From contig NZ_JARRAH010000005.1 in NCBI RefSeq assembly GCF_030553305.1, forward strand, positions 1 through 64,000: a stretch of 64,000 bases of DNA, in the 5' to 3' direction. The translations under genes were made by a program, and so were the position numbers. The notes beneath the pieces were generated by a model. It saw only the letters and a list, made by a program, of their open reading frames with translations, made no database searches and was not told the origin of the DNA. Positions 7,019 to 54,799 of this stretch are shown here, piece after piece. Positions within the stretch are counted from its first letter, which is position 1, and each line of letters begins with the position of its first letter. The DNA comes from Halomarina ordinaria (lineage in GTDB: Archaea; Halobacteriota; Halobacteria; Halobacteriales; Haloarculaceae).

Positions 7019-7116
7019 TCTTACCAAACGTATCCCATGCTATCATCGTAGATGTTTGGTAAGGCGAACTCGGCATACCTTCCGAGTTTCTTTGAATCCA
7101 TATCTGAATACGTACC

Positions 7117-7287
7117 CGTATACGAATTCGTATACGGTATCATATACGATTACGTATCTGTATAAGGCGTGGATCCGCAGCCACGGGAACTGCACATACT
7201 TCAACATCTGGTCCAGTAGCCTGCGGGAAAACGCACCTGGTATCGTATACGAATACGCATACAGACACGAATAGGAATTCGTATACG
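7117..7287. repeat. Palindromic CGTATACG repeats, candidate partition site downstream of the ParB-like gene
   Basis: A perfect 20-bp palindrome, CGTATACGAATTCGTATACG, lies at 7117-7136. Related half-sites are CGTATACGAATAC at 7244-7256 and GAATTCGTATACG at 7275-7287, with further TATACG/TACGTAT variants at about 7142-7155. The same core recurs just upstream of parA (8520-8533). Repeats on both sides of a parA/parB-type gene pair are the expected layout of a centromere-like site and autoregulatory operators. Confidence 0.7.
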
Positions 7288-7671
7288 TCAGAACTGGTCG
7301 GTCATATGCCGTATCTGCGCGGATTTGGCGGTCTCGATCACCTCTGGTGCAGCCTCCTGTAACCCAACCCGGAGTGCTAACCTGAGGAGTTCTGACCGGT
7401 CAACAGAGTCGTCGACATCCCGTCCGAGCGCACTCTGAAGTGACGCTCCGACGGTCTCTATTTCACCGGTTGCCTCTAGACCGTAAATGACCGCTGCGAG
7501 TCGCTCATCTCGAACCGAGAGCGTCTTTGCCTTTCCTCGCTGGTTGATCGCTTCCAACGCCTCGACAATTGCTGTCTCGAGTTCGTCGACGTCGTCTTCT
7601 TTCGCAGGCTGCTTGACGCGTGATCCTGGATCGGTCAACTCCCGGAGCTCATCGAGTTCGTTGCCGGTCAT
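7288..7671 (-). CDS. Putative ParB-like partner of ParA (small partition protein)
   Basis: This 127-residue acidic protein has no recognised ParB-Srx or ribbon-helix-helix signature, but its position is typical of a ParA partner: its ATG overlaps the parA stop (TGATG) and repeats follow it. The middle part (ERLAAVIYGLEATGEIETVGASLQSALGRDVDDSVDRSELLRLALRVGL) looks like helical DNA-binding material, with DRSELLRLALRVGLQEA resembling the C-terminal half of a ribbon-helix-helix or similar fold. The function is inferred from context. Confidence 0.6.
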   Translation of the reverse strand: MTGNELDELRELTDPGSRVKQPAKEDDVDELETAIVEALEAINQRGKAKTLSVRDERLAAVIYGLEATGEIETVGASLQSALGRDVDDSVDRSELLRLALRVGLQEAAPEVIETAKSAQIRHMTDQF

Positions 7672-8510
7672 CAGTTACCACCTCCTAATCGTGCGATGAG
7701 CGCTCTGGCATCTTCCTCGTACGCTGCCATTGCCCGCTGGGCAGTTTTCGACGGTCGTTCTAGTGACCAGAGTACGGTCCCATCCATCTGAGCGTTCTGG
7801 ATGTCCTGGCTCGAGGGGATCTGTGCAGGCGCAATTGCGTCAGGGTACTCGCTTGCGAACTCTTCGAGGTACCGTCGGCCCGCCTTCGTTCGCTCATCAA
7901 CTTCGTTCAGTAATACCATGGTCAACTCGATGGTGACGCCCTGCTCTTCGTGGATGTCATCCAGATCCTGCCTGAGTTGAGCGGCTTGCCCCGCTTCGAA
8001 TGGTCCTGGTCTAACGGGGGCGATGACATTTCTCGCCGCCCATAGGCCATTGTATGCGATGTTCGATGTACTCCCTGGGAGGTCGAGGAGGATTACATCG
8101 TAGTCATCGTCAACGTATTCGGTGAGAAACGCGTCGAGGCGGCCATATCGCTCCGCAGGCTCGTCGATATTCGCTAACACGGCGTCCAGTCCATCGAGCG
8201 ACCCGTGTGCGGGGATGATATCTGGTCCTTCCTCCGTCTCGATGATGAGGTCCTCGAGTGCTGAATCCAGTTTTTCGACGACGATACTCCATTCGTCCTG
8301 AAACGTCGTCGCGATGTTCGGCCACCGGTCTTCGGCTTGCAACTCCTCCCAGAGCCCGAAGTGCTTACTCAGGTCGCCTTGCTTCCCTGCGAGATCGATA
8401 AGCAGGGTTCGATACCCCTCTTTTTCGAGCGCTGTGCCCAGATGAGCAGTTCCGGTGGTCTTACCGACACCGCCCTTGTCGAGGAACAGTGCCGCTCGCA
8501 TTGCAGCCAT
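7671..8510 (-). CDS. parA: ParA-family partition ATPase
   Basis: This 279-residue ParA/MinD-superfamily ATPase has the deviant Walker A motif KGGVGKTT at 12-19. The switch/Walker B region is YDVILLDLPGS, with a later NEVDERTKAGRRYLEEF segment. I start at the ATG at 8510; an in-frame upstream extension would translate the palindromic repeats and is unlikely. It segregates plasmid or replicon copies together with a DNA-binding partner, here probably the overlapping downstream gene. The CGTATACG palindromes directly upstream suggest autoregulation. Confidence 0.9.
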   Translation of the reverse strand: MAAMRAALFLDKGGVGKTTGTAHLGTALEKEGYRTLLIDLAGKQGDLSKHFGLWEELQAEDRWPNIATTFQDEWSIVVEKLDSALEDLIIETEEGPDIIPAHGSLDGLDAVLANIDEPAERYGRLDAFLTEYVDDDYDVILLDLPGSTSNIAYNGLWAARNVIAPVRPGPFEAGQAAQLRQDLDDIHEEQGVTIELTMVLLNEVDERTKAGRRYLEEFASEYPDAIAPAQIPSSQDIQNAQMDGTVLWSLERPSKTAQRAMAAYEEDARALIARLGGGN

Positions 8511-8519
8511 ATACGGTTT

Positions 8520-8533
8520 CGTATACGTATACG
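8520..8533. promoter_or_regulatory. Palindrome CGTATACGTATACG upstream of parA (operator or partition half-site)
   Basis: This is a perfect 14-bp palindrome 10 bp upstream of the parA start, sharing the CGTATACG core with the cluster at 7117-7287. Its position over the parA promoter fits a partition-protein operator. Confidence 0.6.
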
Positions 8534-8727
8534 CATAAATGTACGTCAGACAAATCACAGTCTACTGATCTCCAAACCGATAGAAACCAGCAACCACGAA
8601 AACCGGTACACAGGTAGTCTATGGAGTTCAGCACAACTCGTGGTAGATCGGTGGTCTGGCCGGTTCTCGTACCTGATTGCGAGAGTTCATCTACTGGTGT
8701 ATGTTGACCACCAATCTTGTCGTCCAG

Positions 8728-9240: not shown

Positions 9241-9542
9241 ACTTTGCGCTACGAGTCATAGATACTGAGTCTTTGCTGGTGCGGGTATCTCCTGCGGCCT
9301 CGAGGACCCACTCTAGCCAGTATTCGTCTCTAGGGAGCTATCTGAACGCAGTCGGGGCGATATTCTCTGTCTGCTTGTTCGCGGTGAGATCGATTCTTAC
9401 AATTTCGCGGGGTCCCGTTGAGGTGGTCCAATCCTCAATTCGAGTTTGGACCAGCTCCGAGCGGTCGAACCGAGCACCAGCAGAAGTTGCGACTGGGAGT
9501 CTCAATGCATGAGTGCTTGTGAGTCGAATCAGCTACTGCATG

Positions 9543-9572
9543 GATTGCTGGTATTGATAGATAGAGAGCGTG
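9543..9572 (+). repeat. Left 30-bp inverted repeat of the giant-ATPase module
   Basis: The 30 bases at 9543-9572 match the reverse complement of 17319-17348 at 29 of 30 positions. Weaker similarity continues inward for roughly 80 bases, including CACAGTTCTG against CACAATTCTG and GTGCTGCATACA against GTGCTGTATACA. The rest of 9241-9689 holds no gene I can support. Confidence 0.75.
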
Positions 9573-9622
9573 CGTGTCTCAGTGAGGGGCCCAATCTCTC
9601 ACAGTTCTGCCAGTCTCATTGT

Positions 9623-9643
9623 GCTGCATACACAGTGTGTATC
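9623..9643. promoter_or_regulatory. Palindromic motif (ATACACAGTGTGTAT core)
   Basis: The 15-bp core at 9628-9642 is a perfect palindrome. Related sequences occur at 10127-10143 and, degenerate, at 17247-17263, and GCTGCATACA variants also occur near 25416, 31722 and 52462. It is part of the extended left inverted repeat. Confidence 0.5.
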
Positions 9644-9689
9644 AGTCGGCCAACAATCGCAAATCCGAGACACTAGTCAATAGATTGTA

Positions 9690-10046
9690 TCAATCTTGAA
9701 GTGGAGGATTCTCGAACACTGAACCACAATCTTTGCATACTGTTACCGTCCGACTGTTTCTCCGGGTGAGAGTCAAATCAGCATGCCCACAGTGGGGACA
9801 ATCTCGCGGGATATGCTCACTATTGCAGGAAGGGCAGACGAAGGTAACACCAGCATCACCGGTGTTCAAGCGTAGATTCTCGTGGTCACAGGTAGGGCAC
9901 AGTACTGGGATTCGTATATCCGCAGTGTTGCGAGGCGCACCCATAGCGAGGGCTACCAATTCCTGACCAGACGCGTTTCTACCAGACTGAAACTCGCCGG
10001 GAGGAAACCGGATTACCTCACCTTCTTTAGGCGAGACCCGATACAA
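9690..10046 (-). CDS. Multi-zinc-ribbon protein next to the giant ATPase
   Basis: The protein has up to 118 residues if the TTG at 10046 is used; no ATG is near, so the start is uncertain. The C-terminal 70 residues carry successive CxxC pairs: CPTCDH, CPSCNSEH, CPHCGH and CKDCGS, enough for two complete zinc ribbons. The N-terminus (EGEVIRFPPGEFQSGRNASGQELVALAMG) is unrecognised. It lies downstream of the giant ATPase gene on the same strand, inside the same inverted-repeat pair, so it may be part of that module. Zinc ribbons of this kind bind nucleic acids or proteins. Confidence 0.6.
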   Translation of the reverse strand: MYRVSPKEGEVIRFPPGEFQSGRNASGQELVALAMGAPRNTADIRIPVLCPTCDHENLRLNTGDAGVTFVCPSCNSEHIPRDCPHCGHADLTLTRRNSRTVTVCKDCGSVFENPPLQD

Positions 10047-10126
10047 ATAATGAGGGACTCATTACCGTGGTCACGATCTCCGCTGTCCCTGTTTGACATT
10101 TCGATTTTGGTGCCCAACAAATGACC

Positions 10127-10143
10127 GATACACGCTGTGTATC
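10127..10143. promoter_or_regulatory. Palindrome GATACAC-GCT-GTGTATC upstream of the zinc-ribbon gene
   Basis: This perfect 7-bp-arm inverted repeat with a 3-base spacer lies about 81-97 bp upstream of the zinc-ribbon gene start. The surrounding 55 bases (10107-10160) resemble 17230-17290 in the same orientation, so the block appears upstream of both genes of the module. That is consistent with a shared operator. Confidence 0.5.
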
Positions 10144-10262
10144 TTCGCACGACTGTTTTAACAAATTCCAGATAGGATATGAGTGAGTAGATGATTTTTT
10201 GTGAATCCAATACTAAATTTGGAATCGCGTTCCACGAAGATTTCTGGCTGTCCGCTGGTTTG

Positions 10263-13200
10263 TCACCCTCCGAGTTCGAAGTTCACGTAGAATTTCCCGC
10301 CGCGGAGTTTCTCCCAGACGGGGTCTTCCTCGTGATCGAAGTCGCCGAAGCGAACGACGTCTTCGATGTCCCGAAACTCGATCTCCGGCCATCCCGATCC
10401 CTTTTCCCACCCACGGGGTAAGCGGACCATTCGAACCAGATATCGGTCGACGGTCACCCTTGCAGGAATCCCTCCATCGGCACTGGGACCAGGTCGACGA
10501 GCCATCCGGAACTCGTTCCCGGTCAGTTTGAACCGCCCTTTGTCGGTCTCCTCGAGCAACACCGTCTTCACTTCGGTCCGCGTCATCTGCGCTCGTTCCC
10601 ACCCGTCGGTGGCGTCGGGACCGTACTGCCGGCCGAACGGATCGATGTAATCGAATCCCGGCCCCCGTTCCTCCGATGTGTCGACGAGTGCGTGGAAGAC
10701 GGCTCGAGCGGTGGGTTTGTCGTCGATCTCCGCAGCCGTGAGGTGACGCTTGGCGACGGCGTAGTCGTCGATTCCCTTCAGTCCCAAGATGGCAGCGTCC
10801 GTCACGGCATCGGACGCCGACTTCATGCGCCAGTCGTCGTAGTCTCGCCACTCTTCGACCGCGTCGACGACACGCGACCGTTGGTTGGCAGCTAGTGACT
10901 CGAAGCGGTCCCAGGCACGCTCGATACAGATCAGTTCGCCATCACGGCCACGACCCGCGGCAATTTCGGCGTCACTGTACGACGAGGGGGTGCCGCTCTT
11001 GTTGCCAACGGACGGGGAGCCGCGCGACTCTGGGGGATCCGACGCTGAGAGGTCGGACTGGCTGAAGTCGATCGACGAAACCGGCGACTCCTCCGAGAAC
11101 CACTCTTCGGTTCGCCGTTTCCGCGTTCGTTCCTGCTCGACGGGAGACGACCGCCCCCTGTCCTCGGTGACCGTCTCGAACACCTCTCGCACCGTCGTCT
11201 CGGCACTGGCTGGCGACTCCAACGCTTCACAGAGGCTGTCGAACAGTTCGCGGTTGGCTTCGTCGGCGAAGACGACGTCCATCTCGACGACTTCCGATCG
11301 CTGAGTCCGACACCACGACACCACCGTGTCACGGAGTACCGGGGGAACTGGCCCCGAATCGTCCGCCGGAAGGGCGACCAGCGGAACGTCCTGGAGGTGG
11401 TCCGGTAACGACGTGGCAGTCGGAATCACGTCCGATGTCGAGGCAGTCGGGGTCGGCGTGGTCCGCCGACGTGCCTCGGCTACGGCGTCGAGGAGGACGT
11501 CCTCTCCGGGATCGGTCGTCTGTGTGACAACGGCCCAGAACTTCTCGACGGCTGTGATCGCGGTGACGTAGTCTTCGAGTGTTTTGTAGGTTGCCGACTC
11601 ACCCCACTCGTCCAGATCGGCCCACGGGTCCGACTTGGCGAGGCTGGCGAGATCGAGGTGTGGTGTACGTCTCGCGACGGGTGCCAGCAGCCGTTGCCGA
11701 TCGGTTGGACGGCTCTTCGCCGCGGCGACCGTACAGCGCGTCGCATCCTCCTCGGAGAGGCCGCCGGGCTCACAAAGGTGTCTGTGCCACGTCGCGATCG
11801 GGTCGAGATCGCTGAGCGGTTCGTCAGCCTCGGGATCGACATCGGTCACTGCGTTGAGGACCGTTTCGGCGTCGACCGATGACCACGCGATTTCGGGGAG
11901 GGGCCGTCGGTCTGAACCCGACTCGGAGTCGGACGAGCGCAGGTGGTCGAGCAACGTCTCGAGAGCAGCGTGGATCCGCCGCAGTCGCCTCTCGTTCAAG
12001 GCAGCAATCTGCCGCTCGATGTCCGCCAGATCGTCCTCGTACTCCCGATCCAGTTGTGGCTCTGTTTTCATCAAGACGTTCTCGAACGCGTTACGAACCC
12101 GTCGTGACGGCTGATCGTCGAGGATCTGGACCAGGCCTTCGGCTGCGTAGAACGGGGGAATTGACTCGTCGTCGGCCACTCGGAGACTCTCTTCAAAGAA
12201 CGCGATCCGTGTCTCGGCACTCTCCTCCGTGGGGACCCACAGTGCCGACCGACGGTCTCCGGGTCTGTCGTCCGAGCGGTCGACGATCCCGATCTCGTTG
12301 GTCGCGGCGCTCTGGAGCGCCGTGTAGACAGCTTCGAGTTCGGTTTGCGAGGTCGTGGCCCGGTCGTAGGCAGCGACGAGATACGGAACTCTGTGGTCGA
12401 TCGCTTCTGCTACTCGTTGGAGTGCCGAGTCGTACGACTCAGCGGCAGTACTCGGGCCTTCGACCGGTTCTAGCTCCGGAATCTCACCCTCACCTTTCGT
12501 CCGGATACCGAACGAGAACGTCGGGTCTTCGTGGGGACGGTCACCCAGTACAAGCGCGAGACCACCGGGGTGGGTAGCGGGCAACTCGACGAACGCGCTT
12601 CGCTGCCCCTCTAAGATGTCGCGAGCATACTCGGGGAGGCGATCCGTGTAGACGTCAATCAGGATCGACAGTGACTCCGATCTCCCCTCGCCAACCGTAA
12701 CCGAGCAGAGCGCGCCACCTCGATTCACAAGGAGACGGGTCCCTACGTGCCAAATGTCCCTACGTTGCCAGGCCCGCTGCAACTCGTCGTCCATGTCGGG
12801 AACATGGTCTCTGAGATGGTCCCAAGTCACGAACCGGCGCAGGAGGCCGAACGTAGCCCTCCGTACGGACTCCATGTGCTCCGCCGGCAACTCGGTGACG
12901 TCATCACTCAACGGGTCGGTAGCGGCCGCTTCGTACGTCCTCAAGAACCAGTCGAGTTGCGCCGCCGCCTCCGCAGGCGTATGGTCTGCAATCGGTTTTG
13001 CGCCGAGTGCACCAGCGACAGCCCGAAGATCCAATTCGGGTGGGTCGATCTCGAACGGCTCGCAGGCTTCACTGACGTCCTCACGGAGGGTCTCCGTGTC
13101 GATCGTCGGGAGTTCGGCCTCGGCACGTCGGCCAGAGCCACCGTCGGAGGGGTCGAACACCAATCGCCGTGCTGGGTTCACTCCCGGCCGATACGCACCC

Positions 13201-16200
13201 TCTCGTCCCTCTCCAGACTTCCAAAGGCCAGAACTGGGCCAGTCGGTCGGCCACAAGTAGGCTGTTTGGAGTTGGACGAGCCCCAACGCTGGAATCGTGG
13301 TGTTGTTCGAGGCTGGGCTGTGTCCGGTATCGGTACAGAACCAAGCCGTTTCGAAGAGGTGCTCGGACAGTTCGGGCCAGAGGAGGAGTATCGCCCGTCG
13401 GAAGTCCGTGGTCGTGTCGTCATCCAGAATGTCGAGTTCGGTGAAACGCCACCACGTCGGTACGACGATGTCGTTCCCGGCGATCTGGATCCACTCGCTA
13501 ACGGCGTCTTCGAGCAAGTTGCCACGGCAAGTCGACGTGTGACCTGCGCTGACTGCGGGGTGGTGTTCGGTTCGCCAGCAGATTGACGCGTACGTGTCGA
13601 GTTCCGCCGCCGGTGGATCGATCGGACTGTCTTCCACGGTGGCATCCCCGCCTGTCGTCAACTGCTTCGCCTCGGTCAGTGTCATAGCACCTGTGTCCCG
13701 GTCGCGACCATTGCTACCAGGGAAGAACCACCCCCACTCGACGTGAGGGCCGACTTGCACGCCGACGTGGATCAAGAAGTTGAGTAACCACAGAGCACGG
13801 TCGCCGTCGCGGACCTCGGTGTCTGCGACGACTTCGAGCCACCGCTCGTCACTCGGGGGAGCGACGGCAAGTGTACCCTCCCGATCTACCATCGACGTAC
13901 ACTCGATGACCGCCGCCCACCGACGGAGATCTCTCGCTCGGGCCGGCAGTCCTTCTTCGTAACTCCCAGTGAACGGGTCGCGAACGGATCCCGACTCGAG
14001 ATCGTCGGCGATACTCTCGAACGCATCGACCCACTCTTGGCCAAAGACCAGTCGTTCTGCCGGCGCGACACCGCCGTCGGCAGTGGGCACTGGAACGCGC
14101 TGTGAGTAGCGGCGTTCGAGGAAGGTGTCGTAATCGCTAGGCCGGTTTCGGAGGCTCTCACCGACCAGTAGGTCCTCGACGCCCGTCTCATTTTCACCGG
14201 CGCTGAACTGTCGATTCCGATGCGGTGTGGGCCGTAACCATGGGGCTCTCTTGAGGGACGTTTCGACACAGACTGTCTGATAGAGATCCAACAAGTACCC
14301 AAGCGTCGCGTCATCGACCTCAAGGCGAGCGTCTCGCGGTGCGGAGAAGCCACCGATCTCTGCGGCGACGCGCTGGTAGTACGTGGCCGGCCCTCGCAGC
14401 TCTCGTGTCCCCCACTCGTTGTAGTTGGCCGCCAGCGTGCCCGACCAGTCCTCGTCGAACGGGGTAATGTAGATGTCGAGTGATTTAGGCGGTGCGACAA
14501 GTTGATCGATCGACGTCTCTGCTGACTGGCTCGTCTCTTTCGACCGGCGGAACACGATCCGATCGCTCCGCTCATACCGATCCGAGTGGCCGCCAGGTTC
14601 GCGTGTCGACGCACGGACGAGGTACCCGATCCCCATATCGGTCTCGTCGCTCGGGTCGTCACCGTGTGCCTCTCCGGGGAGCAGCGGCACGTGCCAGTCC
14701 CCTAATTTTCTTGCCGGATCTCTGCCATCCTCCTGCTCGTCGGCCTCTTCGTCCTCCGAATCGTATCTGTCGAGTGCAGCACAGATAGACTCGAAGTAGT
14801 GACGAGCGTACGGTTCGTCGTCACCATGTGAAGCGTACAGTTCAGCGTCGATCGGAACGGCCCAGCGGTCGGGATCGCCCCCCCAGACGTCACGGAGTGT
14901 CGAGACGAGACCCGAGCCCCCCGTCCCGTCTCGATGGAACGGCTGGTCAACCACGGCGGTCAGACCGATTCGAGTCGCGACTTCGCGATTCTCAGCTTGA
15001 ATCTCCCCGTTGGCCCGAGCACGCTGCAGCCAGCGGTCACCGTTCGTGACGGACTCCTTCGCCACAATTGGTGGAGATTCACCGGCACGGAGCGGTTCGA
15101 ACGCGTAGAGGCGATCCGGATCGACCAGTACCTCCGTCGGCTCTCGAATCTCGCCGCCGTGGGACGGCACGATTGGAGTCTCGCGCAAGGCTTCACACAC
15201 CCGTGAGACTACGTCGAGAGAGTTCTCGTCTCGCTGCCGGAACGGCATCACCAGCCACGGCATCCAGGCGTCGTAGTTATCTTGACCGCCTCGACTGTCC
15301 GGCCGAGCGAGGTCGACCGCAGCCTCCGCGACTAAGTCCGGAACTGCGGACAGGAGCTGTCGATTGACGTCGCTATCGTCTAGCTCCTGTCGGTCGAACC
15401 CCACTTGGAATGGAGCGTGCACCACGAACGGGAACGACGTTCGGGCGTCTTCGATCGGATAGAAGAGATACAGCGTCTTTCGTTCGGGAGCCCAACCGTC
15501 GTCCGCTGGTCTCGGCGACTCGAAGAGCAATCGCATCGGCTCATCGAACGTCCAATCGTCCTCGTCGCTGTCTTCGTCGTCCGGTGGATCGATGTCTACC
15601 GGACGAGAGTAGAGCCGGAACTGCTTCTCGGTCGGCTCGTCCACGTCGTCGGTCGCTTCGGAGACCGTGATGGACTGCCGATCTACTTCGGTACTCGATT
15701 CGATGTCCCGGGATTCACCGGTCGTGATCTCGACCCGTCTGGACTCGGCGAGTTCGAGCTGGCCACTCACCTCATCGCGGGTAACTCTGAGGAACTCGAT
15801 GTCTCTAATTTCGCCGAGTAAGACGAGAGTCTCACGACCGAGATCGGTACACTCCCCCCACAGTTGTGTTGCAGACTCGTTGTCTCCGTCGCTCCGCTGG
15901 TCACGGAACTGTCGTGCGACGTCCGGGTGTTCGTCGGAGAGCGGTAAGTCCGTCAGTAGTTCCTGGATAGTGTCGAGTAATCTCGTCCACTGCTCGTCGT
16001 CGTACTCAAGTTCGAGAACGGTCCGGTACTTTCCACGGTGGGCCGAGAGGCGAGCTTCGAGGTCGTCGTCGACCGACTCGTCGATATCTGACATCGGAGT
16101 CGTCGATTTCAATAGGACCTCGGTCAAGCCAGTTCCGTCACTTGAGGAGTGGCCATCAACGAACGGGTACCGAAACAGCGAAAGTCGGGGGATATCCCGC

Positions 16201-16904
16201 AGCACCTTGAGTGGGTTCGGTGGGATCTGCTCCGCCTGCACCGGCTGGAGTTCTGCCAAATCCTCGTCCTCGAGGTCGTCGGGGGTGGCTGAGGAGACGG
16301 GGAGCGAGAGATCGCCGACGATCGACTCGCAGGCGTCGACGACGGTCGAGTCGTACTCGTCGTCGAGCACGGACCGAAAGTCGGGATCGTCGAGGAACTC
16401 CGTGTACGTGTCCAGGAGCATCGAGACAGACTGTGACCGAGAGAAGCCGACCGATACCCGCTCGTCGACTACGATCGACTCGATCGAGAACTGCTTGGCA
16501 GTCTGGAGGATCGACTTCATCCCGACGCCCTTCTCACCGATCGCCCCACGTTCGTCCGCCTTCTCTGATCGGTTGAGCGCGGTCACGGCCTCGAATACCT
16601 GCTCGTCGTGGAGACGGAATGGACGCCCCGTGTTCGCCACGTAGAGCGAGTCGGGTCCGACAATCACTGCGACGGAGCCAGGCCTATCACTACTTGCCGA
16701 GGCGTCGTCGCGTCCCCGTCGAATCGCGTCTCGTGCGTTCTGAATCAGTTCGAGGATCGTCCGATTGTCGTGTGCTTCCGATACCGCCTCATTACCGACG
16801 CCGAGGTCACCCTCCTTCCGCCACCCACTGGAGTTGCGGAGTTGGAGAAGGAGGTCGCGCTGTTCACGGCGACATAGTTTCCGAAGATCCGATCGTGCAC
16901 TCAT
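10263..16904 (-). CDS. Giant protein: N-terminal sacsin/HSP90-like ATPase, C-terminal DUF3883 (NOV)-like domain
   Basis: The protein has 2213 residues. The N-terminus has a GHKL/HSP90-type ATP site: ELIQNARDA (52-60, N-box with catalytic Glu and Mg-binding Asn), ANTG (90-93) and GEKGVGMKS (123-131). The C-terminus has GFDYIDPFG (2083-2091), EVK (2111-2113) and FKLTGNEFRMAR followed by a DRYLVRMVRL strand, the pattern of DUF3883/NOV domains, which resemble PD-(D/E)XK nucleases. The roughly 1900 residues between are acidic and unrecognised. Sacsin-type ATPases joined to NOV domains are known in bacteria, archaea and plants, and some occur among restriction-like genes. A role as a chaperone-like sensor with a nucleic-acid effector is inference. 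The gene is alone with a zinc-ribbon gene inside an inverted repeat and next to an integrase. No frameshift is seen. Confidence 0.8.
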   Translation of the reverse strand: MSARSDLRKLCRREQRDLLLQLRNSSGWRKEGDLGVGNEAVSEAHDNRTILELIQNARDAIRRGRDDASASSDRPGSVAVIVGPDSLYVANTGRPFRLHDEQVFEAVTALNRSEKADERGAIGEKGVGMKSILQTAKQFSIESIVVDERVSVGFSRSQSVSMLLDTYTEFLDDPDFRSVLDDEYDSTVVDACESIVGDLSLPVSSATPDDLEDEDLAELQPVQAEQIPPNPLKVLRDIPRLSLFRYPFVDGHSSSDGTGLTEVLLKSTTPMSDIDESVDDDLEARLSAHRGKYRTVLELEYDDEQWTRLLDTIQELLTDLPLSDEHPDVARQFRDQRSDGDNESATQLWGECTDLGRETLVLLGEIRDIEFLRVTRDEVSGQLELAESRRVEITTGESRDIESSTEVDRQSITVSEATDDVDEPTEKQFRLYSRPVDIDPPDDEDSDEDDWTFDEPMRLLFESPRPADDGWAPERKTLYLFYPIEDARTSFPFVVHAPFQVGFDRQELDDSDVNRQLLSAVPDLVAEAAVDLARPDSRGGQDNYDAWMPWLVMPFRQRDENSLDVVSRVCEALRETPIVPSHGGEIREPTEVLVDPDRLYAFEPLRAGESPPIVAKESVTNGDRWLQRARANGEIQAENREVATRIGLTAVVDQPFHRDGTGGSGLVSTLRDVWGGDPDRWAVPIDAELYASHGDDEPYARHYFESICAALDRYDSEDEEADEQEDGRDPARKLGDWHVPLLPGEAHGDDPSDETDMGIGYLVRASTREPGGHSDRYERSDRIVFRRSKETSQSAETSIDQLVAPPKSLDIYITPFDEDWSGTLAANYNEWGTRELRGPATYYQRVAAEIGGFSAPRDARLEVDDATLGYLLDLYQTVCVETSLKRAPWLRPTPHRNRQFSAGENETGVEDLLVGESLRNRPSDYDTFLERRYSQRVPVPTADGGVAPAERLVFGQEWVDAFESIADDLESGSVRDPFTGSYEEGLPARARDLRRWAAVIECTSMVDREGTLAVAPPSDERWLEVVADTEVRDGDRALWLLNFLIHVGVQVGPHVEWGWFFPGSNGRDRDTGAMTLTEAKQLTTGGDATVEDSPIDPPAAELDTYASICWRTEHHPAVSAGHTSTCRGNLLEDAVSEWIQIAGNDIVVPTWWRFTELDILDDDTTTDFRRAILLLWPELSEHLFETAWFCTDTGHSPASNNTTIPALGLVQLQTAYLWPTDWPSSGLWKSGEGREGAYRPGVNPARRLVFDPSDGGSGRRAEAELPTIDTETLREDVSEACEPFEIDPPELDLRAVAGALGAKPIADHTPAEAAAQLDWFLRTYEAAATDPLSDDVTELPAEHMESVRRATFGLLRRFVTWDHLRDHVPDMDDELQRAWQRRDIWHVGTRLLVNRGGALCSVTVGEGRSESLSILIDVYTDRLPEYARDILEGQRSAFVELPATHPGGLALVLGDRPHEDPTFSFGIRTKGEGEIPELEPVEGPSTAAESYDSALQRVAEAIDHRVPYLVAAYDRATTSQTELEAVYTALQSAATNEIGIVDRSDDRPGDRRSALWVPTEESAETRIAFFEESLRVADDESIPPFYAAEGLVQILDDQPSRRVRNAFENVLMKTEPQLDREYEDDLADIERQIAALNERRLRRIHAALETLLDHLRSSDSESGSDRRPLPEIAWSSVDAETVLNAVTDVDPEADEPLSDLDPIATWHRHLCEPGGLSEEDATRCTVAAAKSRPTDRQRLLAPVARRTPHLDLASLAKSDPWADLDEWGESATYKTLEDYVTAITAVEKFWAVVTQTTDPGEDVLLDAVAEARRRTTPTPTASTSDVIPTATSLPDHLQDVPLVALPADDSGPVPPVLRDTVVSWCRTQRSEVVEMDVVFADEANRELFDSLCEALESPASAETTVREVFETVTEDRGRSSPVEQERTRKRRTEEWFSEESPVSSIDFSQSDLSASDPPESRGSPSVGNKSGTPSSYSDAEIAAGRGRDGELICIERAWDRFESLAANQRSRVVDAVEEWRDYDDWRMKSASDAVTDAAILGLKGIDDYAVAKRHLTAAEIDDKPTARAVFHALVDTSEERGPGFDYIDPFGRQYGPDATDGWERAQMTRTEVKTVLLEETDKGRFKLTGNEFRMARRPGPSADGGIPARVTVDRYLVRMVRLPRGWEKGSGWPEIEFRDIEDVVRFGDFDHEEDPVWEKLRGGKFYVNFELGG

Positions 16905-17678
16905 TTAAATATCTAAAACTCCGTCAGTTGCGTCTTCATTCCCTGTTACTTAGCCTTTGGTCTGGATCGACCCCGCACTCGCCACCCTGCTCAAACTCGA
17001 CGTAAGTGTAGAACCAGTTCATGTGCTCCCTCACCCAGACTATCTGAGAACGGTCGCGTCTCGACAAGTCATCAACCGAGCTTCGAGCGAGTGTTATCGT
17101 GTTATAGAACTACCCACACGCAATTTACAGCGGTGCAACTCTGGACAGAAAATGTTGGAATAGAGATGGTTTCAGAAGGCGGTGGAAAGTACAGAGGTTG
17201 TACTCACCGACTCAGTCAACTCAGGTTGGGTGCCGAACCGATGACCGATTCGCGCTATGTATACAGCACGACGAAATTAACAGAATTGTGGGGGGTTGGG
17301 GGCTCCCTCTGATAGACCCACGCTCTCTGTCTATCAATACCAGCAATCAACGAACACTGTGGTGACCGACGCTCCCAAGGGACGCCGCTGACGAGCGATC
17401 CAGCGTTCGGAACGGTGCCGGTCAGCTATCGACTGCTGACTGATTGACGAGCGGTACAGGCATCCAAGCGTGTGGTTTGTAGAAATCCAAATGCCGAACT
17501 TCTGAACTTCCCAGCACCAGTACTTGATGTAGCGTAATGTGATATACAAAACGGTCTTTTTGCGATATACGTGCTCTACAACCCTTCAAACGCCTGTTTT
17601 CCATCTCCTAAGGTTACTGCCTGGTAGAATCCTACGCGGCAGTGAACTTATGCACCCCCGTTCCGTCTGTCGACCCGA
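16905..17678. other. Intergenic region with the right inverted repeat and upstream block of the giant ATPase gene
   Basis: No gene was found here. It holds the promoter region of the giant ATPase gene (ATTTAAATAT sits directly before its start), a degenerate palindrome at 17247-17263 similar to 10127-10143, the right 30-bp inverted repeat, and about 330 bp ahead of the integrase gene. Confidence 0.6.
17319..17348 (-). repeat. Right 30-bp inverted repeat of the giant-ATPase module
   Basis: The reverse complement matches 9543-9572 at 29 of 30 bases (single C/T difference). The pair encloses about 7.8 kb containing only the multi-zinc-ribbon gene and the giant ATPase gene. The integrase gene begins about 330 bp outside this repeat. 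Confidence 0.75.
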
Positions 17679-18800
17679 ATGGTCGAGCAGCACGAAGACG
17701 ATGGTTCTCCCGGGGGTCAGCCACTCGAAGAGGCGATCGAGGCACGCCTGCGGAGTATCGACTCGGGGAACTACCGACGGAGTGTTCGGTCGGCACTCGA
17801 GGCGTTCGCCGAGGTCGTTTGTGAAGACGGAGAAATCGAGGCCGTCGATGACGTGAGTCGGTACGACTGTCGGTACTACGCCCAGACCCTTCGCGACCGC
17901 GCGAAACGCCCTGGGGAGCGCTTCGCGGCGAGTACGGCGCACAAGAACTACGCGTTCGTCCGGGCGTCATTCACGTGGTGGCAACGCGACGGACGCATCG
18001 CCCAGAACCCCGCCCAGTGGCGTGGGGCCACGGACGAACTCCCCGAGGTCGTCGAGCAACCCGAGCGCCAGTTCTGGTCGAAACGTGACCGACAGGCGAT
18101 TCTTCGCTATACCGACCGTCAGGTCGATGAGGCGCTTGATGGTGGGGATAATCCGCTTCCCGCCTTCCGTGACCGAGCGATCGTCTACACGCTTGCCCTG
18201 TCGGGGGTACGTGGTGCGGAGGTCTTCCGTGACCCGGCTGACGACCGACGCGAGGGCCTTCGCTGGGAGGACGTCGACTACGACCGTGGGGGGCTCACCG
18301 TCTTCGGCAAGACCCGAACCTACCAGAACGCACCCCTCCCGAGTGACGCCCAGACGCGACTAGAGCGTTACCAGCGATTGTTCAACCCTGAGGAAGTGTG
18401 GCCGGTCTTCCCCTCGCTGCACCGCCCCTCGCTCTATCGAACGGTCCGAGAAGGACTCACTGACCTCGCCGATGACCGAGTCGAGGCGCTGCTTGAAGAG
18501 AACGACCCGCTCGACGTGATGCGCGAGTACGGACTCGTCCCGCCGGCACTGTCAGTCCGGGGGGCCCGATCGGTGATGAAGCGGCTGTGCGCCGACGCCG
18601 ATCTCGATATCGACGGCGAGTACCTGAAGCCCCACGGGGCCCGTCGGGGACTCGGTCACCAGCTCTACACCGAAGGGCAAGCAGAACTCGCACAGGAGGC
18701 GCTGCGTCACCAGTCCGTCGAAACAACGCACCAGTCCTACCACGACGTCCAGGTCGAAGAGACCGCCCGACGTGTCGACGATATCCTGAACGAGGACTAA
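17679..18800 (+). CDS. Tyrosine recombinase / phage-type integrase (XerC/D-like)
   Basis: This 373-residue protein has an N-terminal SAM-like core-binding domain (about 15-110) and a C-terminal catalytic domain with the full active-site set: R178 in SGVRGAE, K211 in FGKTRT, H319 and R322 in KPHGARR, H344 in ALRHQS, and Y354 in HQSYHD. It should cut and rejoin DNA through a 3'-phosphotyrosine link. It lies just outside the right inverted repeat of the giant-ATPase module, so it could mobilise a larger island. No tRNA gene or attachment-site duplication was recognised nearby. Confidence 0.9.
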   Translation: MVEQHEDDGSPGGQPLEEAIEARLRSIDSGNYRRSVRSALEAFAEVVCEDGEIEAVDDVSRYDCRYYAQTLRDRAKRPGERFAASTAHKNYAFVRASFTWWQRDGRIAQNPAQWRGATDELPEVVEQPERQFWSKRDRQAILRYTDRQVDEALDGGDNPLPAFRDRAIVYTLALSGVRGAEVFRDPADDRREGLRWEDVDYDRGGLTVFGKTRTYQNAPLPSDAQTRLERYQRLFNPEEVWPVFPSLHRPSLYRTVREGLTDLADDRVEALLEENDPLDVMREYGLVPPALSVRGARSVMKRLCADADLDIDGEYLKPHGARRGLGHQLYTEGQAELAQEALRHQSVETTHQSYHDVQVEETARRVDDILNED

Positions 18801-24364: not shown

Positions 24365-24598
24365 ACCCAACTATCGAAAGACAGCTACTCTGTGCGTATC
24401 AACCTACGGCAGACACTCGGCTGACGAATCCTCGGCGAAGCAGAGACACGACGAGTGCGCTGCCACCAATTATTACTGTGGAGGCTCTGTTGAAATCCTC
24501 AGTAAGTGATATGTTCTCAGCGTTCTGCTGAATATAGAGCGCGAGTGTGTCGAGCGAGAGAAGATGGGCTTTTGCGCACGCCCTCTCTCGCTCTCACC

Positions 24599-25306
24599 AT
24601 GCAGACGTTCCTCCAACTCGTCCACGAATACGAATTCGATCTCCCCGACCGGTTCGAGGGTGACCCTCGCACGCCTGCCACCTATGTCGAGCACTTTCTC
24701 ACGACGTTCACCGACCCTGACGACACTATCCTCGACCCATTCGCCGGCTATGGGACAACCCTCAGGGTCGCGGAACGGATGGGACGGGAGGCATACGGCA
24801 TCGAGTACGACGCCGACGTTGCATCGTTCGCTCGCCAGCAGGTTGACCATCCAGAGCGAATCGTCCACGGGGACGCGCTGGAGGCTGCGAGCTACGACGA
24901 CGTACCACCCGTCGATTGTTGTTTCACCTCACCGCCGTACATGATCGAGGTGATGGAGGCGGACCCGCTGACGAACTACACCGAGACCGGTCGGGAGTAC
25001 GAGCGGTATCTCGCGGACCTCGGGCGTGTGTTCGACCACGTCGATGACCTGCTTCGAGCGGGTGGTCACGTCCTCATCGACATATCGAACATGAAGTTCG
25101 AAGGGACAGTGACGACGCTCGCGTGGGACGTCGCGGACGAGGTGGCTGACCGGTACCGATTCGAGGGCGAGGTCGTGGTGACGTGGAAGGCTGATAACTC
25201 CTCACGCGACTACGGCGAGGGTACCTACGGCTACGGCTACGACCACAGCTACGGTCTCGTGTTCGAGCAAGAAGAGGAGGCTACTACGTCCTCCGACAAT
25301 TCTTGA
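24599..25306 (+). CDS. DNA methyltransferase, N4-cytosine/N6-adenine type
   Basis: This 235-residue protein has the SAM-binding motif DPFAGYGTT (about 44-52) and the catalytic motif TSPPYM (about 116-121). SPPY is typical of N4-cytosine enzymes, although N6-adenine or RNA guanine activity cannot be excluded. The motif order (FxGxG-like before SPPY) and the short length leave little room for a large target-recognition domain. The start is the ATG at 24599. No restriction partner is adjacent, so it may act as an orphan or as the protective half of a lost system. It is enclosed by IS-type ends. Confidence 0.75.
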   Translation: MQTFLQLVHEYEFDLPDRFEGDPRTPATYVEHFLTTFTDPDDTILDPFAGYGTTLRVAERMGREAYGIEYDADVASFARQQVDHPERIVHGDALEAASYDDVPPVDCCFTSPPYMIEVMEADPLTNYTETGREYERYLADLGRVFDHVDDLLRAGGHVLIDISNMKFEGTVTTLAWDVADEVADRYRFEGEVVVTWKADNSSRDYGEGTYGYGYDHSYGLVFEQEEEATTSSDNS

Positions 25307-51912: not shown

Positions 51913-52516
51913 CGTCGTAAACCGTGCCCGACCGCTCGCTCATAAGGACGACTAGCACGTAGATCAAGTCGTCTGTACGCATCCACAGAGAGCGACGCAC
52001 GGACAGTAGTCGGCTACGCGGGAGGATCTGTCAGAGGAAGGTGGAACACCGCGCCCTATTGCTGAAATCACAGCTGAGAACATAGACCTCCGATGCACCC
52101 GTTTCAGACACTCGATACCACGCGAGAGATTATTCGTTGACCTGCGAGGACAGGAGTAATGGACGAGAGAGGCCAGAATTCAACTGTTCTCGGAAACGGG
52201 AACCGATGGAGCCTCTGACAGCCGGCGGCAAAAAATCGCTAGCACTACACATAATAATTGTCACTTCGAGCGATTGTTTCGGGTTCGATATATCGATGAT
52301 AGTCACGATGAAATCAGTGTATACCGTGTTTATATTGGACTAGTCGTGTCTAGTGCTGCAGTTTCTTTCACGCCGGTTCACGGTGACGTAGCTGTTAGAC
52401 GTGTGCCGCGTGTGTAGCGCGGCGGTTCCTACCAGATTGGGTGTATATCGTCTATCAGCCCGCTGCATACAGAGGGTGTAGTCAGCAGGACACTATCCCC
52501 ACGAGGCATCTCTGGG
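51913..52516. other. Intergenic region, no gene seen
   Basis: These 604 bases have no supported gene. The region contains a GCTGCATAC motif at 52462-52470 like those near other mobile-element ends, and ATTGCTGAAATCACAGCTG near 52060, which faintly resembles the IS-end family seen at 24483. An old insertion remnant is possible. Confidence 0.4.
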
Positions 52517-54799
52517 TCAACCAGTTGGCCGGGGGTCAGCCGACGGCGACACCTCGGGGAGGCTTGGAATTTCGAGGTCAGCTCGTCGAAGGAACTGCGC
52601 ATTGATGGCAACGATGACCGTACTCAGCGACATCAGCAGTGCGCCCACTGCCGGCGAGAGAAGAATCCCAATTGGAGCTAGAACACCCGCAGCTAGCGGA
52701 ATTGCGAAGACGTTGTAGCCGGCCGCCCACACGATGTTCTCCTGCATCTTCCGGTAGCTCGCCTTGCTCAGCTTCACAAGTCGGACCACGTCCATTGGGT
52801 TGTTCTGGACGAGGATCACGTCGGCCGACTGAACGGCAACATCAGTACCACTTCCGATGGCGATTCCGACGTCGGCTCGCGTCAATGCTGGTGCGTCGTT
52901 CACGCCGTCGCCAACCATCCCGACGAGCTTACCCTGATCTTGGAGCTCCCGGACCTTCGTGTCCTTGTCCTCGGGGAGCACCTCCGCAAATACCGTGTCG
53001 ATACCGAGTTCGTTGGCGACAGCGTTGGCAACGTCCTGAGAGTCTCCAGTCAGCATCGCCACCTCGATACCGAGGTCGTGTAGGGCATCAACGACGAGAT
53101 AGCTCTCGTCGCGAATCACGTCGGCCATTGCGAAGGCAGCGATCAACTCGCCTCCACGGACAAGGTACACGACTGTCTGAGCGTTCTCTCCGGCCTCGTC
53201 AGCGAAGTTCTGGAGATGATCGGGAACTTCACTCTCGAGTTGGGTCAGCAGGTTCGGCCCACCGACGTACACCTCGTTTCCGTCGACGTTCGCTCGAACA
53301 CCTCGACCCTTGATCGCCTCGAAACCGGTCGCGTCAGGGGTAGTGAAGTCTCGCTCCTCGGCTGCCTCGCGGATAGCCCGCGCAATCATATGCTCAGAGT
53401 CGCTCTCAACCCCGGCGGCGAGTGCGAGTGCATCGTCTTCAGCGACGCCGTCGACGGTCGCGATGTCGACAACGCCATGTTCACCCTCGGTGAGCGTCCC
53501 CGTCTTGTCGAAGATGATGGCGTCCAGATTGCGTGCGTCCTCCATCGCGATTCGGTCGCGGACCAGCATTCCGTTGCGAGCCGCCAACGACGTGTTGATG
53601 GCGACGACCAGCGGGATTGCGAGTCCGAGTGCGTGCGGGCAGGCGATGACAAGCACCGTGACGATACGTTCGATGACTGTGGCGTCGAACGACACCGCGA
53701 TGGTCCACGCGATTGCCGTCACTCCTGCCGCTGCCACGGCAACGTAGAACAGCCATCCCGCCGCCCGGTCAGCTAACACCTGCGTCTTGGACTTGCTCTG
53801 TTGGGCCTCATCAACTAAACGCATGATCCCGGCGAGCGTCGTCTCCTCACCTGTCGCGTCGATTCGGACGCGAAGGCTGCCGTCGCTGTTGACGGTCCCA
53901 CCGATGACCTCGTCGCCAGGTTCCTTCGAGACGGGCTTGGATTCGCCGGTGATCATCGCCTCGTTCACGTCGGAGTCGCCTTCCTCAACGATGCCGTCTG
54001 CGGGGACGCTTGCGCCCGGCCGAACGAGCACAAGGTCGCCCTCCAGAAGGTCGCTGACGGGAACCTCCTCGGTGTCACCGTCGTCAGTGATTCGTTCCGC
54101 GGTGTCCGGCATCAGCTTCGCCAGTTCGTCGAGCGCACTGGAGGCACGACGAACCGACCGCATCTCGATCCAGTGGCCCAGCAGCATGATATCAATCAGC
54201 GTGACAAGTTCCCAGAAAAACGCCGACTGCGTCGGGAAGACCACGCTCGCGAGGCTGTAGACGAAGGCGACGGAGATCGCCATCGAGATAAGCGTCATCA
54301 TCCCCGGGGATCGGTCCCGCACCTCCGGGACGGCCATCTGGAGGAACGGTACGCCACCGTAGGCAAACACGATTATCGCGAAGACGGGATTAATCCATTC
54401 GCTGCCGGGAAACGCCGGAACCGAGAACCCGAGCCACATCTGGAGCATCTCGCTGTACAGCAGGACGGGAATCGACAGCAGTGTCGAGATGAAAAAGCGC
54501 CGTCGGAACATCTGCTCGTGGCCTTCGTGCATCCCACCGTGGTCGCCATGGCCGTTATCCTCACCGTGGTCTCCATGGTCGACGTGTGCTCTCCCATGCC
54601 CACCCTCAGAAGTGGTTTCATGGTCAGCATGCCCCGATACTTGTGCTTCTTCTTCGACCAGCTCTTGCTCCACGTGAGGCTGCTCGTAATCTATGTTCTG
54701 GCGAGTTGAACGGCTAGCAGATTGATCCTGTTCCGGCTCTGAAGGGGTCCCATTGCCGCCTCCGTTCTCGTCTTGAGTATGTTCGTCGTGATTTGTCAT
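52517..54799 (-). CDS. copB: CopB-type copper-translocating P1B ATPase
   Basis: This 760-residue protein has a long His/Asp-rich N-terminus ([11 protein letters not shown] and several HGDHG-type runs), eight membrane helices expected for P1B pumps, the ion-path motif CPH ([13 protein letters not shown]), the phosphorylation site DKTGT, the TGES loop (MITGESKPV) and [13 protein letters not shown] marks the P1B-3 (CopB) class, exporting copper, often Cu(II). The usual SEHP is SEHM. It diverges from the second AsnC-TRASH regulator, whose operator candidate lies between them. Confidence 0.92.

Follow-up and report, generated by a model that had tools for sequence, protein, structure and literature searches.

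The DNA analysed here (the window) comprises 64,000 nt of contig C5 (107,750 bases) from Halomarina ordinaria, whose genome (3.61 Mb, six contigs) is designated G000. Two inverted repeats in the window enclose a giant gene, coding for a 2213-residue protein similar to TmtA (Tiamat), together with the gene for a zinc-ribbon protein. We consider it likely that these two genes are cargo between two inverted sites of a haloarchaeal integron-like cassette system. This reading is based on the sites, their arrays in other genomes of the genus (congeners), homology breakpoints at the cores of the sites, modules carrying the tyrosine recombinase gene intA, and an unoccupied locus. With distinctly less confidence, we lean towards the wider view that Halobacteria own an independently evolved counterpart of integrons. 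It would use class-wide Int1-type recombinases and composites of two opposed 25-nt cores, would have expanded in one genus into large arrays whose one-gene cassettes often code for exported lipoproteins, and could hold a giant 6.6-kb Tiamat gene.

In the proposed mechanism, the core would be the elementary recombination site, and most cassette ends would be composites of two cores, core1 and core2, at fixed spacing. The likely enzyme is IntA, the gene of which is itself bounded by inverted copies of core1. Recombination between cores in the same orientation would excise or insert one cassette, and recombination between opposed cores would invert the segment between them. We infer that IntA cuts these sites and that the TmtA/zinc-ribbon unit in the window was assembled by such recombination. 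In the following, G001-G007 are congeners, L numbers designate fetched loci, and C numbers contigs.

Proposed recombination sites and their distribution

The initial annotation had described inverted repeats, which we confirm at 9543-9592 and 17299-17348. They are 50 nt long, 84% complementary, and the longest among the 92 inverted pairs detected between 7 and 20 kb of the window; their similarity extends to about 105 nt at 76%. Between them, we see only the two genes named in the initial annotation, those for the TmtA-like protein (10263-16904, minus strand; 2213 aa) and for the zinc-ribbon protein (9690-10046, minus strand; 118 aa). The repeat exceeds chance, because the same sequence recurs within the own genome and in congeners.

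Each repeat largely coincides with a site of model R1. The left site is at 9541-9587 (plus strand, E 5.5e-12); the right site, inverted relative to the left one, is at 17304-17350 (minus strand, E 1.7e-14) and is the top scorer in the site scans by covariance model and by position weight matrix (PWM). The elementary site, or core, consists of 7-nt inverted arms around an 11-nt asymmetric spacer, which by analogy corresponds to the plan of a tyrosine-recombinase core. The core contained in the site is core2 (GATAGAC-AGAGAGCGTGn-GTCTATC). In the right site (17311-17335, minus strand), it reads GATAGAC-AGAGAGCGTGG-GTCTATC, with perfect arms, and in the left site (9556-9580, plus strand) GATAGAT-AGAGAGCGTGC-GTGTCTC, with a degenerate right arm. 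Alignment of 45 site copies yielded TCGnTTGCCGGTATTGATAGACAGAGAGCGTGnGTCTATCA, with 5 invariant and 11 near-invariant columns.

When the left repeat was used for a DNA search (E≤0.01), matches were obtained in 6 of 59 genomes, namely the own genome, four congeners, and one genome from another genus (E 0.007). The covariance model, at the same threshold, detected the site in all eight genomes of the genus (12, 20, 53, 1, 1, 1, 78, and 68 matches, which are lower bounds as at most 104 candidates were scored per genome) and in none of the 51 genomes from other genera. The three single-copy matches are weak (E 2e-4 to 6e-3). Among 391 genomes of the class, the core pattern occurs in G000 (4 times), G001 (10), G002 (21), G007 (27), and G284 (4), and once each in three others; the reversed pattern, used as a control, occurs once each in seven of the 391. 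With the PWM, 155 sites in the window and in 37 fetched loci scored higher than 18 bits, including 7 duplicates and thus 148 distinct sites, the best decoy scoring 2.7. An exact 18-nt site pattern, searched across genome contigs, gave 14 matches, all in bacterial records. The repeats are thus not the private border of a defence module, as had been suggested: the site recurs across the genus and bounds unrelated genes elsewhere.

The sequence upstream of core2 divides about half of the 148 sites into two classes, both with a second core, core1 (GATAGAC-TCGCGGCACGn-GTCTAAC). In the long class (44 sites), core1 is at a constant distance; its exact spacer CGCGGCAC is present in 24 sites, between 56 and 59 nt ahead of the site model, with 16 of these at 58 nt. 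In the short class, which has 33 sites, including 27 within arrays, core1 is closer, and its spacer is exact in 21 sites, 16 of these at 15 nt. The reversed core1 spacer CGTGCCGCGA resembles the core2 spacer AGAGAGCGTGA, and the opposite-strand PWM of core1 matches core2 in a number of sites; the composite is therefore considered to consist of two opposed cores. The spacers of core1 (CGCGGCAC) and core2 (AGAGAGCG) suggest opposed polarity.

Proposed cassette arrays

Sites in the congeners form runs of one orientation. The contig G006:C2, for example, carries 23 sites within 25.4 kb (L057/L058), of which 22 point the same way. After L043 and the overlapping stretches of L057/L058 and L063/L064 had been dropped, 93 intervals shorter than 4 kb between sites of the same orientation were counted, with a median length of 684 bp (quartiles 567 and 952). 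One open reading frame (ORF) was called in 56 intervals, none in 19, and more than one in 18.

The ORFs between sites code for lipoproteins, regulators, enzymes, and many proteins of unknown function. A set of 73 array ORFs (L040-L076), picked by a crude acidity rule so that some are likely wrong, was inspected further. By a loose regular expression, 28 have a lipobox-like start, and 22 of these have RR within the first 25 residues (e.g. MNRRALLASLG..LAGC); 8 others have a membrane stretch. Pfam families are diverse (63 families, none with more than 3 members). Matches to PADLOC are confined to 10 families with 1-2 members each, so that the arrays are not defence islands.

Breakpoints and an unoccupied locus

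With the same loci and stretches dropped as for the intervals, the fetched loci have 130 homologous blocks of at least 200 bp in common (shorter blocks were excluded), giving 242 internal ends. Of these, 38 fall at cores in both partners: 18 in core2 (17 at the same site position) and 20 in core1. When sites were shifted at random, the means were 0.06 for core2 and 0.00 for core1, and the maximum in 300 rounds was 1. One cassette is found in two arrays of G006 at 93% identity, with its ends at cores (L046 1229-2129 corresponds to L052 3410-4310). At 99.98% identity, G002 and G007 share a flank that is joined to opposite ends of their IntA segments (L039 6519-10462 corresponds to L063 3944-1); the inner parts of these segments differ as well.

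One chromosomal locus has two anchors that in G007 enclose 3.4 kb with two sites. The own genome has 63 bp between the same anchors, G004 has 125 bp, and G005 about 620 bp, while the locus is also occupied in G002 but with different content. Furthermore, G002 has a cargo-free palindromic site made up of two half-sites placed head to head (L035/L051).

The IntA recombinase

IntA is a protein of 271 aa (PF00589) encoded between inward-facing sites in G002 (L039 4309+/6561-). We read the motifs GMRAGE, HGLRAT, and ETYLNG as the usual catalytic boxes. Homologues with 77-96% identity, and pieces with 67-76%, are found in array loci of G002, G006, and G007; the copies in G002:C2 and G006:C1 are unbroken. 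Also unbroken is a homologue at 63% identity in G007:C16, an 8.6-kb contig which lacks an R1 site, and G004 has one partial gene at 43%. The IntA module is about 950 bp long and has inverted core1 copies at both ends in L039, L063, and L075. IntA is also found between inverted repeats in L077, L078, and L079, the first two being the genes of L039 and L063. G284, from another family, encodes an IntA that is 75% identical and has a similar nesting: inverted core1-like repeats are close to the gene, and outside of these is an 88-nt inverted repeat with a shortened core2.

NCBIfam searches with IntA (E≤0.1) retrieved only generic Xer-type models, the best being XerA_Arch with 26.8 bits (cut-off 220). 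When compared to halovirus proteins, IntA shows 41.6% identity to PhiCh1 Int1, 42.1% to ChaoS9 Int1, 50.0% to an HCTV-5 protein, and 44.0% to one from CGphi46; for PhiCh1 and ChaoS9 Int1, this identity spans 81% of the IntA length. By sequence similarity, IntA is thus assigned to the halovirus Int1 family, which includes the tail-fibre invertase of PhiCh1. Homologues at E≤1e-20 are encoded in 65 of 292 genomes of the class, mostly with 32-57% identity. No IntA relative was found in viral contigs.

In G284, a VapBC-like two-gene pair (read from the sequence) lies within the IntA segment (L107 9350-10050). It is flanked by a sequence of the core3 type (see below) at 10109 (31.9 bits) and, by eye, a similar one near 9260.

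A wider family of sites

Core3 is a related palindrome (GCTGAATACAGAGGGTGTATTCAGC and variants). Of 292 genomes, 57 contain its pattern, as do 37 of 77 genera; the reversed control gave 0. With L077-L079 excluded, 16 of 27 distant IntA homologues have a core3-type site within 300 bp (at both ends in 6 cases, at one end in 10), compared to 183 of 3055 background windows, and 21 of 22 flank matches near these homologues point outward. Among pairs of cores in minus-plus order, pooled with genus loci and duplicates excluded, 16 show a period of exactly 66 nt, the next commonest spacing occurring twice; pairs in the opposite order occur at most once at any spacing. Within the genus, the core3 signal is weak and is not relied on: PWM matches overlap core2 and are near the decoy maximum, and the strict pattern occurs once in G002 and is absent from G000 and G007.

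There are 38 plasmid records with IntA-family genes, of which eight loci were examined. Cores flank the integrase at both ends in 3 of these, at one end in 4, and at neither end in 1. Composites are found in four: five in Natrinema salinisoli, three in Haloprofundus halobius, two in Natrinema caseinilyticum, and one in Salinirubellus salinus. None were found in the loci from Halorubrum ezzemoulense (30.7 kb), Halorientalis marina, and two Natrinema sp. DC36 plasmids (5.7 kb each). Composites of N. salinisoli SLN56 are near the integrase LDB05_RS21320 and start at positions 116733, 119429, 120604, 121887, and 122598 of NZ_CP084470.1 (record coordinates derived from L195, the first base of which is 106000); the last has a weak left core. 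An ArsR-family gene and a hypothetical gene are each alone between two of these composites. The same holds for an alpha/beta hydrolase gene in H. halobius (NZ_CP083667.1), where the second interval contains six genes, and for a hypothetical gene in N. caseinilyticum (NZ_CP100446.1).

The TmtA-like protein and the zinc-ribbon gene

The 2213-residue protein matches the PADLOC TmtA profile PDLC03971 with an E-value of 1.6e-88 (residues 3-2210 against profile positions 13-1779 of 1782). By this match, it is a member of the known family TmtA (Tiamat) and would presumably act as a Tiamat-type anti-viral protein. The motifs pointed out in the initial annotation are at residues 52 (ELIQNARDA), 123 (GEKGVGMKS), and 2111 (EVK). 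The sacsin-type ATPase proposed for the N-terminus is borne out by the NCBIfam sacsin ATP-binding model NF047352, which is passed with 64.2 bits (curated cut-off 50); the Pfam SACS model gave an E-value of 0.089 (13 bits, cut-off 32.8).

The DUF3883/NOV label given to the C-terminus is retained tentatively. The motifs ERGPGFD.IDPF, R.E.K.V, and GR.KLTGNE.RMA, which are NOV-like, are invariant across six full-length homologues with 37-38% identity to the window protein, but the Pfam NOV_C cut-off is not reached. NOV_C does not match the last 300 residues of the window protein at E≤1. It matches four of five full-length relatives (E 0.039-0.13; none in L128) and one of two distant homologues (E 0.0053), all below the cut-off (12.8-17.2 bits, cut-off 22.1). 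Structure models from the single sequence were uninformative, with a mean predicted local distance difference test (pLDDT) score of 36.1 for residues 1-400 and 31.9 for residues 1985-2213. PDB searches gave nothing at 0.01, the profile searches returning one match each (E 0.089 and 0.88), and the NOV-like C-terminus had no PDB match.

Five full-length relatives (L127-L131) are 35-38% identical to the window protein, in a haloarchaeal branch of about 2200 aa. Their genes were found on plasmids from Halobaculum halobium and Halorientalis marina, as well as in G171, G163, and G195. The first 500 residues have a match at E≤1e-15 in 14 of 194 genomes of the class, the own genome included. The Tiamat (TmtA) anti-phage family reportedly goes back to Millman et al. 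in 2022. Tiamat has been counted in 20 of 382 complete archaeal genomes, as cited in the available part of PMC13321033.

The initial annotation had named adjacency of the zinc-ribbon gene in homologous loci as a check on its suggested two-gene unit. We detected no homologue (tblastn, 1e-3) in the 4-9 kb on either side of the five full-length relatives, nor in the stretches around five distant ones (L132-L136). We therefore reject it as a conserved partner and do not regard the two-gene unit as conserved. For the suggested defence role, this leaves the profile match, to a family filed as anti-phage, in favour, whereas a two-gene system is not supported.

The two genes may be two joined cassettes, since they are separated by a third copy of the inner repeat. 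This core3-type copy is located in the gap between them (10123-10147, minus strand; a similar stretch covers 10106-10163) and was seen by alignment, not being picked up by the core3 scans. Further core3-type sequences are found about 45 nt inward of the left core (9623-9647, plus strand) and inward of the right site (17243-17267, minus strand). Both are weak, with 14.8 and 15.0 bits at a decoy maximum of 14.8.

Further features of the window

The outer flank of the left site (9421-9540, plus strand) belongs, by flank family comparison, to family UP2, which comprises 9 sites in the loci and precedes the first site of an array in 5 of the 9. The outer flank of the right site (17351-17507, minus strand) was assigned by the same comparison to family UP4 (5 sites). 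It is 73-78% identical to flanks in L063, L041, L075, and L074, the membership of which was assigned from sequence matches. L063 and L075 carry IntA, and L041 has broken IntA pieces at a distance of 6.3-6.9 kb.

Next to the right flank, a tyrosine recombinase of another family is encoded (17679-18800, plus strand), which is XerC-like but far under the XerC cut-off. It was rejected as the responsible enzyme because no homologue was found in the other array loci fetched.

A relic composite which lacks core2 is found at 52394-52486, with core1 at 52394 (minus strand) and core3 at 52462 (plus strand, 33.1 bits). The region 52340-52490 thus contains half of a long composite (core1 and the stretch following it) and core3, and adjoins a P-type ATPase gene (52517-54799). 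A DNA methylase gene (24506-25306, plus strand; PF01555, E 1e-20) has inward-facing core3-type sites at its ends (24527, plus strand, 23.0 bits; 25416, minus strand, 21.2 bits) and is perhaps another cassette. On either side of a ParA-type gene (7671-8558) and its neighbour, repeats with a 12-base period and rich in CGTATACG (7093-8548) are perhaps a partition site.

Points against the proposed explanation

Several observations weigh against an integron-like cassette system or against the place of the window unit in it. Recombination at the cores is deduced from sequence comparison, and none was observed. The 38 breakpoints are non-independent, as one and the same junction is counted in several pairs of loci, an example being the edge of the IntA module. 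Just one clear empty palindromic site was found, and no genome was found that has the window locus minus the TmtA unit. The strand of the gene relative to that of the site is mixed in the cassettes (44 against, 30 with, by crude ORF calls).

With respect to the enzyme, IntA was not detected at E≤1e-5 in G001, despite its 20 sites, in G003, in G005, or in the own genome. The window unit is therefore probably fixed, or mobile only with the enzyme supplied in trans. The gene is broken in several copies: an in-frame TGA interrupts the one in G007:C14, the G002:C26 copy is split, and those in G002:C11 and G007:C3 are fragmentary. When locus pairs were tested for inverted repeats, E<1e-3 was also passed by 5 of 60 mismatched pairs, from a pool that holds three similar loci.

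In the window itself, the two sites are inverted and on their own would flip the unit rather than excise it; the core3-type copies on either side of the TmtA gene are direct but weak, and the left core is degenerate in its right arm. Beyond the genus, 11 of the 27 distant IntA homologues have no core3-type site within 300 bp, the threshold of 12 bits applied near IntA homologues is below the decoy maximum of 14.8 (1.43 Mb), and the int loci of PhiCh1 and HCTV-5 have no core3-type site nearby. Finally, arm covariation is weak and does not support folding of the site.

Alternative explanations

The alternative that survives best, although we consider it unlikely, is that the repeats are terminal inverted repeats of transposons, the TmtA unit being a non-autonomous element and the arrays nested insertions. 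This would fit the window, L039, L041, and L056, where inward-facing pairs have similar ends, and also the copies at contig ends (L040, L042, L050), a position typical of assembly-breaking repeats. However, neighbouring copies share their orientation in the 93 intervals and are mostly one gene apart, breakpoints fall inside the palindromic core, and it is a tyrosine recombinase that recurs within inward pairs. No transposase is among the 25 commonest of the 63 Pfam families in the 73 array ORFs, the window unit has no transposase gene, and no target duplication is seen by eye beside the window repeats.

Slightly less likely again are diverged true integrons, with an IntI enzyme and folded attC sites. 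One-gene cassettes in arrays, composites of two simple sites, and a tyrosine recombinase within would all be shared, and integrons are present in other archaea according to the available text of PMC9668308. Yet IntA reaches XerA_Arch, the description of which includes "integron integrase", with only 26.8 of the required 220 bits, and the core arms GATAGAC..GTCTATC apparently depart from the order of attC boxes. Pairing that depends on folding is likewise unsupported. In an initial shuffle test of arm covariation, three measures were reached by 14-21 of 500 shuffles and the other two by 344 and 162. For the pairing of the left and right arms of core2, 2 of 2000 shuffles of all 65 rows reached the observed value, compared to 20 and 269 when the two site classes were shuffled separately. 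For core1-right with core2-left, the corresponding counts were 0 for all rows and 32 and 1878 for the two classes. Core1-left and core2-right gave no signal (1798 of 2000). As the signal fades within classes, it is largely explained by the make-up of the site classes, and an attC-like hairpin is considered unlikely, the arm pairing being mixed once split by class.

It is improbable that the sites are repeated promoters or other regulatory elements of a co-regulated gene family. They are intergenic and palindromic, like operators, and many cassette ORFs have a common lipoprotein-type start, but homology stops at cores in both partners much more often than expected at random, cores delimit the IntA modules, and gene strand relative to the site is mixed. 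Most improbable of all is a self-contained two-gene defence or quality-control system bordered by the repeats. In its favour, TmtA matches its profile, and the two genes share a strand inside the repeats; against it, no zinc-ribbon homologue was found around ten TmtA relatives, and the repeats enclose unrelated genes elsewhere.

Comparison with known systems

If the proposed cassette system is real, Halobacteria, a group known for rapid gene exchange, would have a second solution to the integron problem, the capture and shuffling of single genes, and a family of virus tail-fibre invertases would be tied to a cellular gene-capture platform. The lipoprotein cassettes suggest that surface proteins are among the shuffled content. 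The 66-nt period of the composites and the defined cores provide an exact handle for annotating cassettes in existing haloarchaeal genomes, and the proposed system offers a reason for the occurrence of a giant defence-type gene between inverted repeats that lack a transposase.

The pdif modules on Acinetobacter plasmids, which are moved by XerC/XerD, also consist of genes bounded by inversely oriented recombination sites. They differ in using host Xer enzymes and dif sites, without a dedicated recombinase module. With Tiamat, the window protein shares the near-full-length profile match and the sacsin-type ATPase; it differs in belonging to the haloarchaeal branch with about 2200 aa.

A survey of tyrosine recombinases (PMC8138268) distinguishes two halobacterial groups, Arch1 and Arch2, and describes no cassette arrays in its available part. 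Among the papers listed in searches of open-licence literature, none described such arrays in Halobacteria, which is no proof of absence. The main text of the report on archaeal integrons (Ghaly et al., 2022; PMC9668308), in its available form, has no word starting with Halobact or Halo.

The closest parallel for the IntA module is the Int1 invertase of PhiCh1, PhiH1, and ChaoS9 where, according to the available part of PMC6210493, a central recombinase gene likewise sits between inverted repeats. In PhiH1 and PhiCh1, the int1 gene switches two tail-fibre genes, whereas IntA sits among arrays of unrelated cassettes.

With integrons, as presented in the available text of PMC9668308, the proposed haloarchaeal system has in common arrays of mostly one-gene cassettes, each cassette having its repeated composite site. 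In both, some arrays include a tyrosine recombinase, some genomes have sites although they lack a recombinase, and a cassette can be common to different arrays. The haloarchaeal system shows no sign of folded-site recognition, and its recombinase differs, being from the Int1 invertase family and associated with a core of 7-nt arms and an 11-nt spacer. It differs also in its architecture, with a recombinase gene that is bounded by inverted cores and with opposed sites that also enclose cargo.

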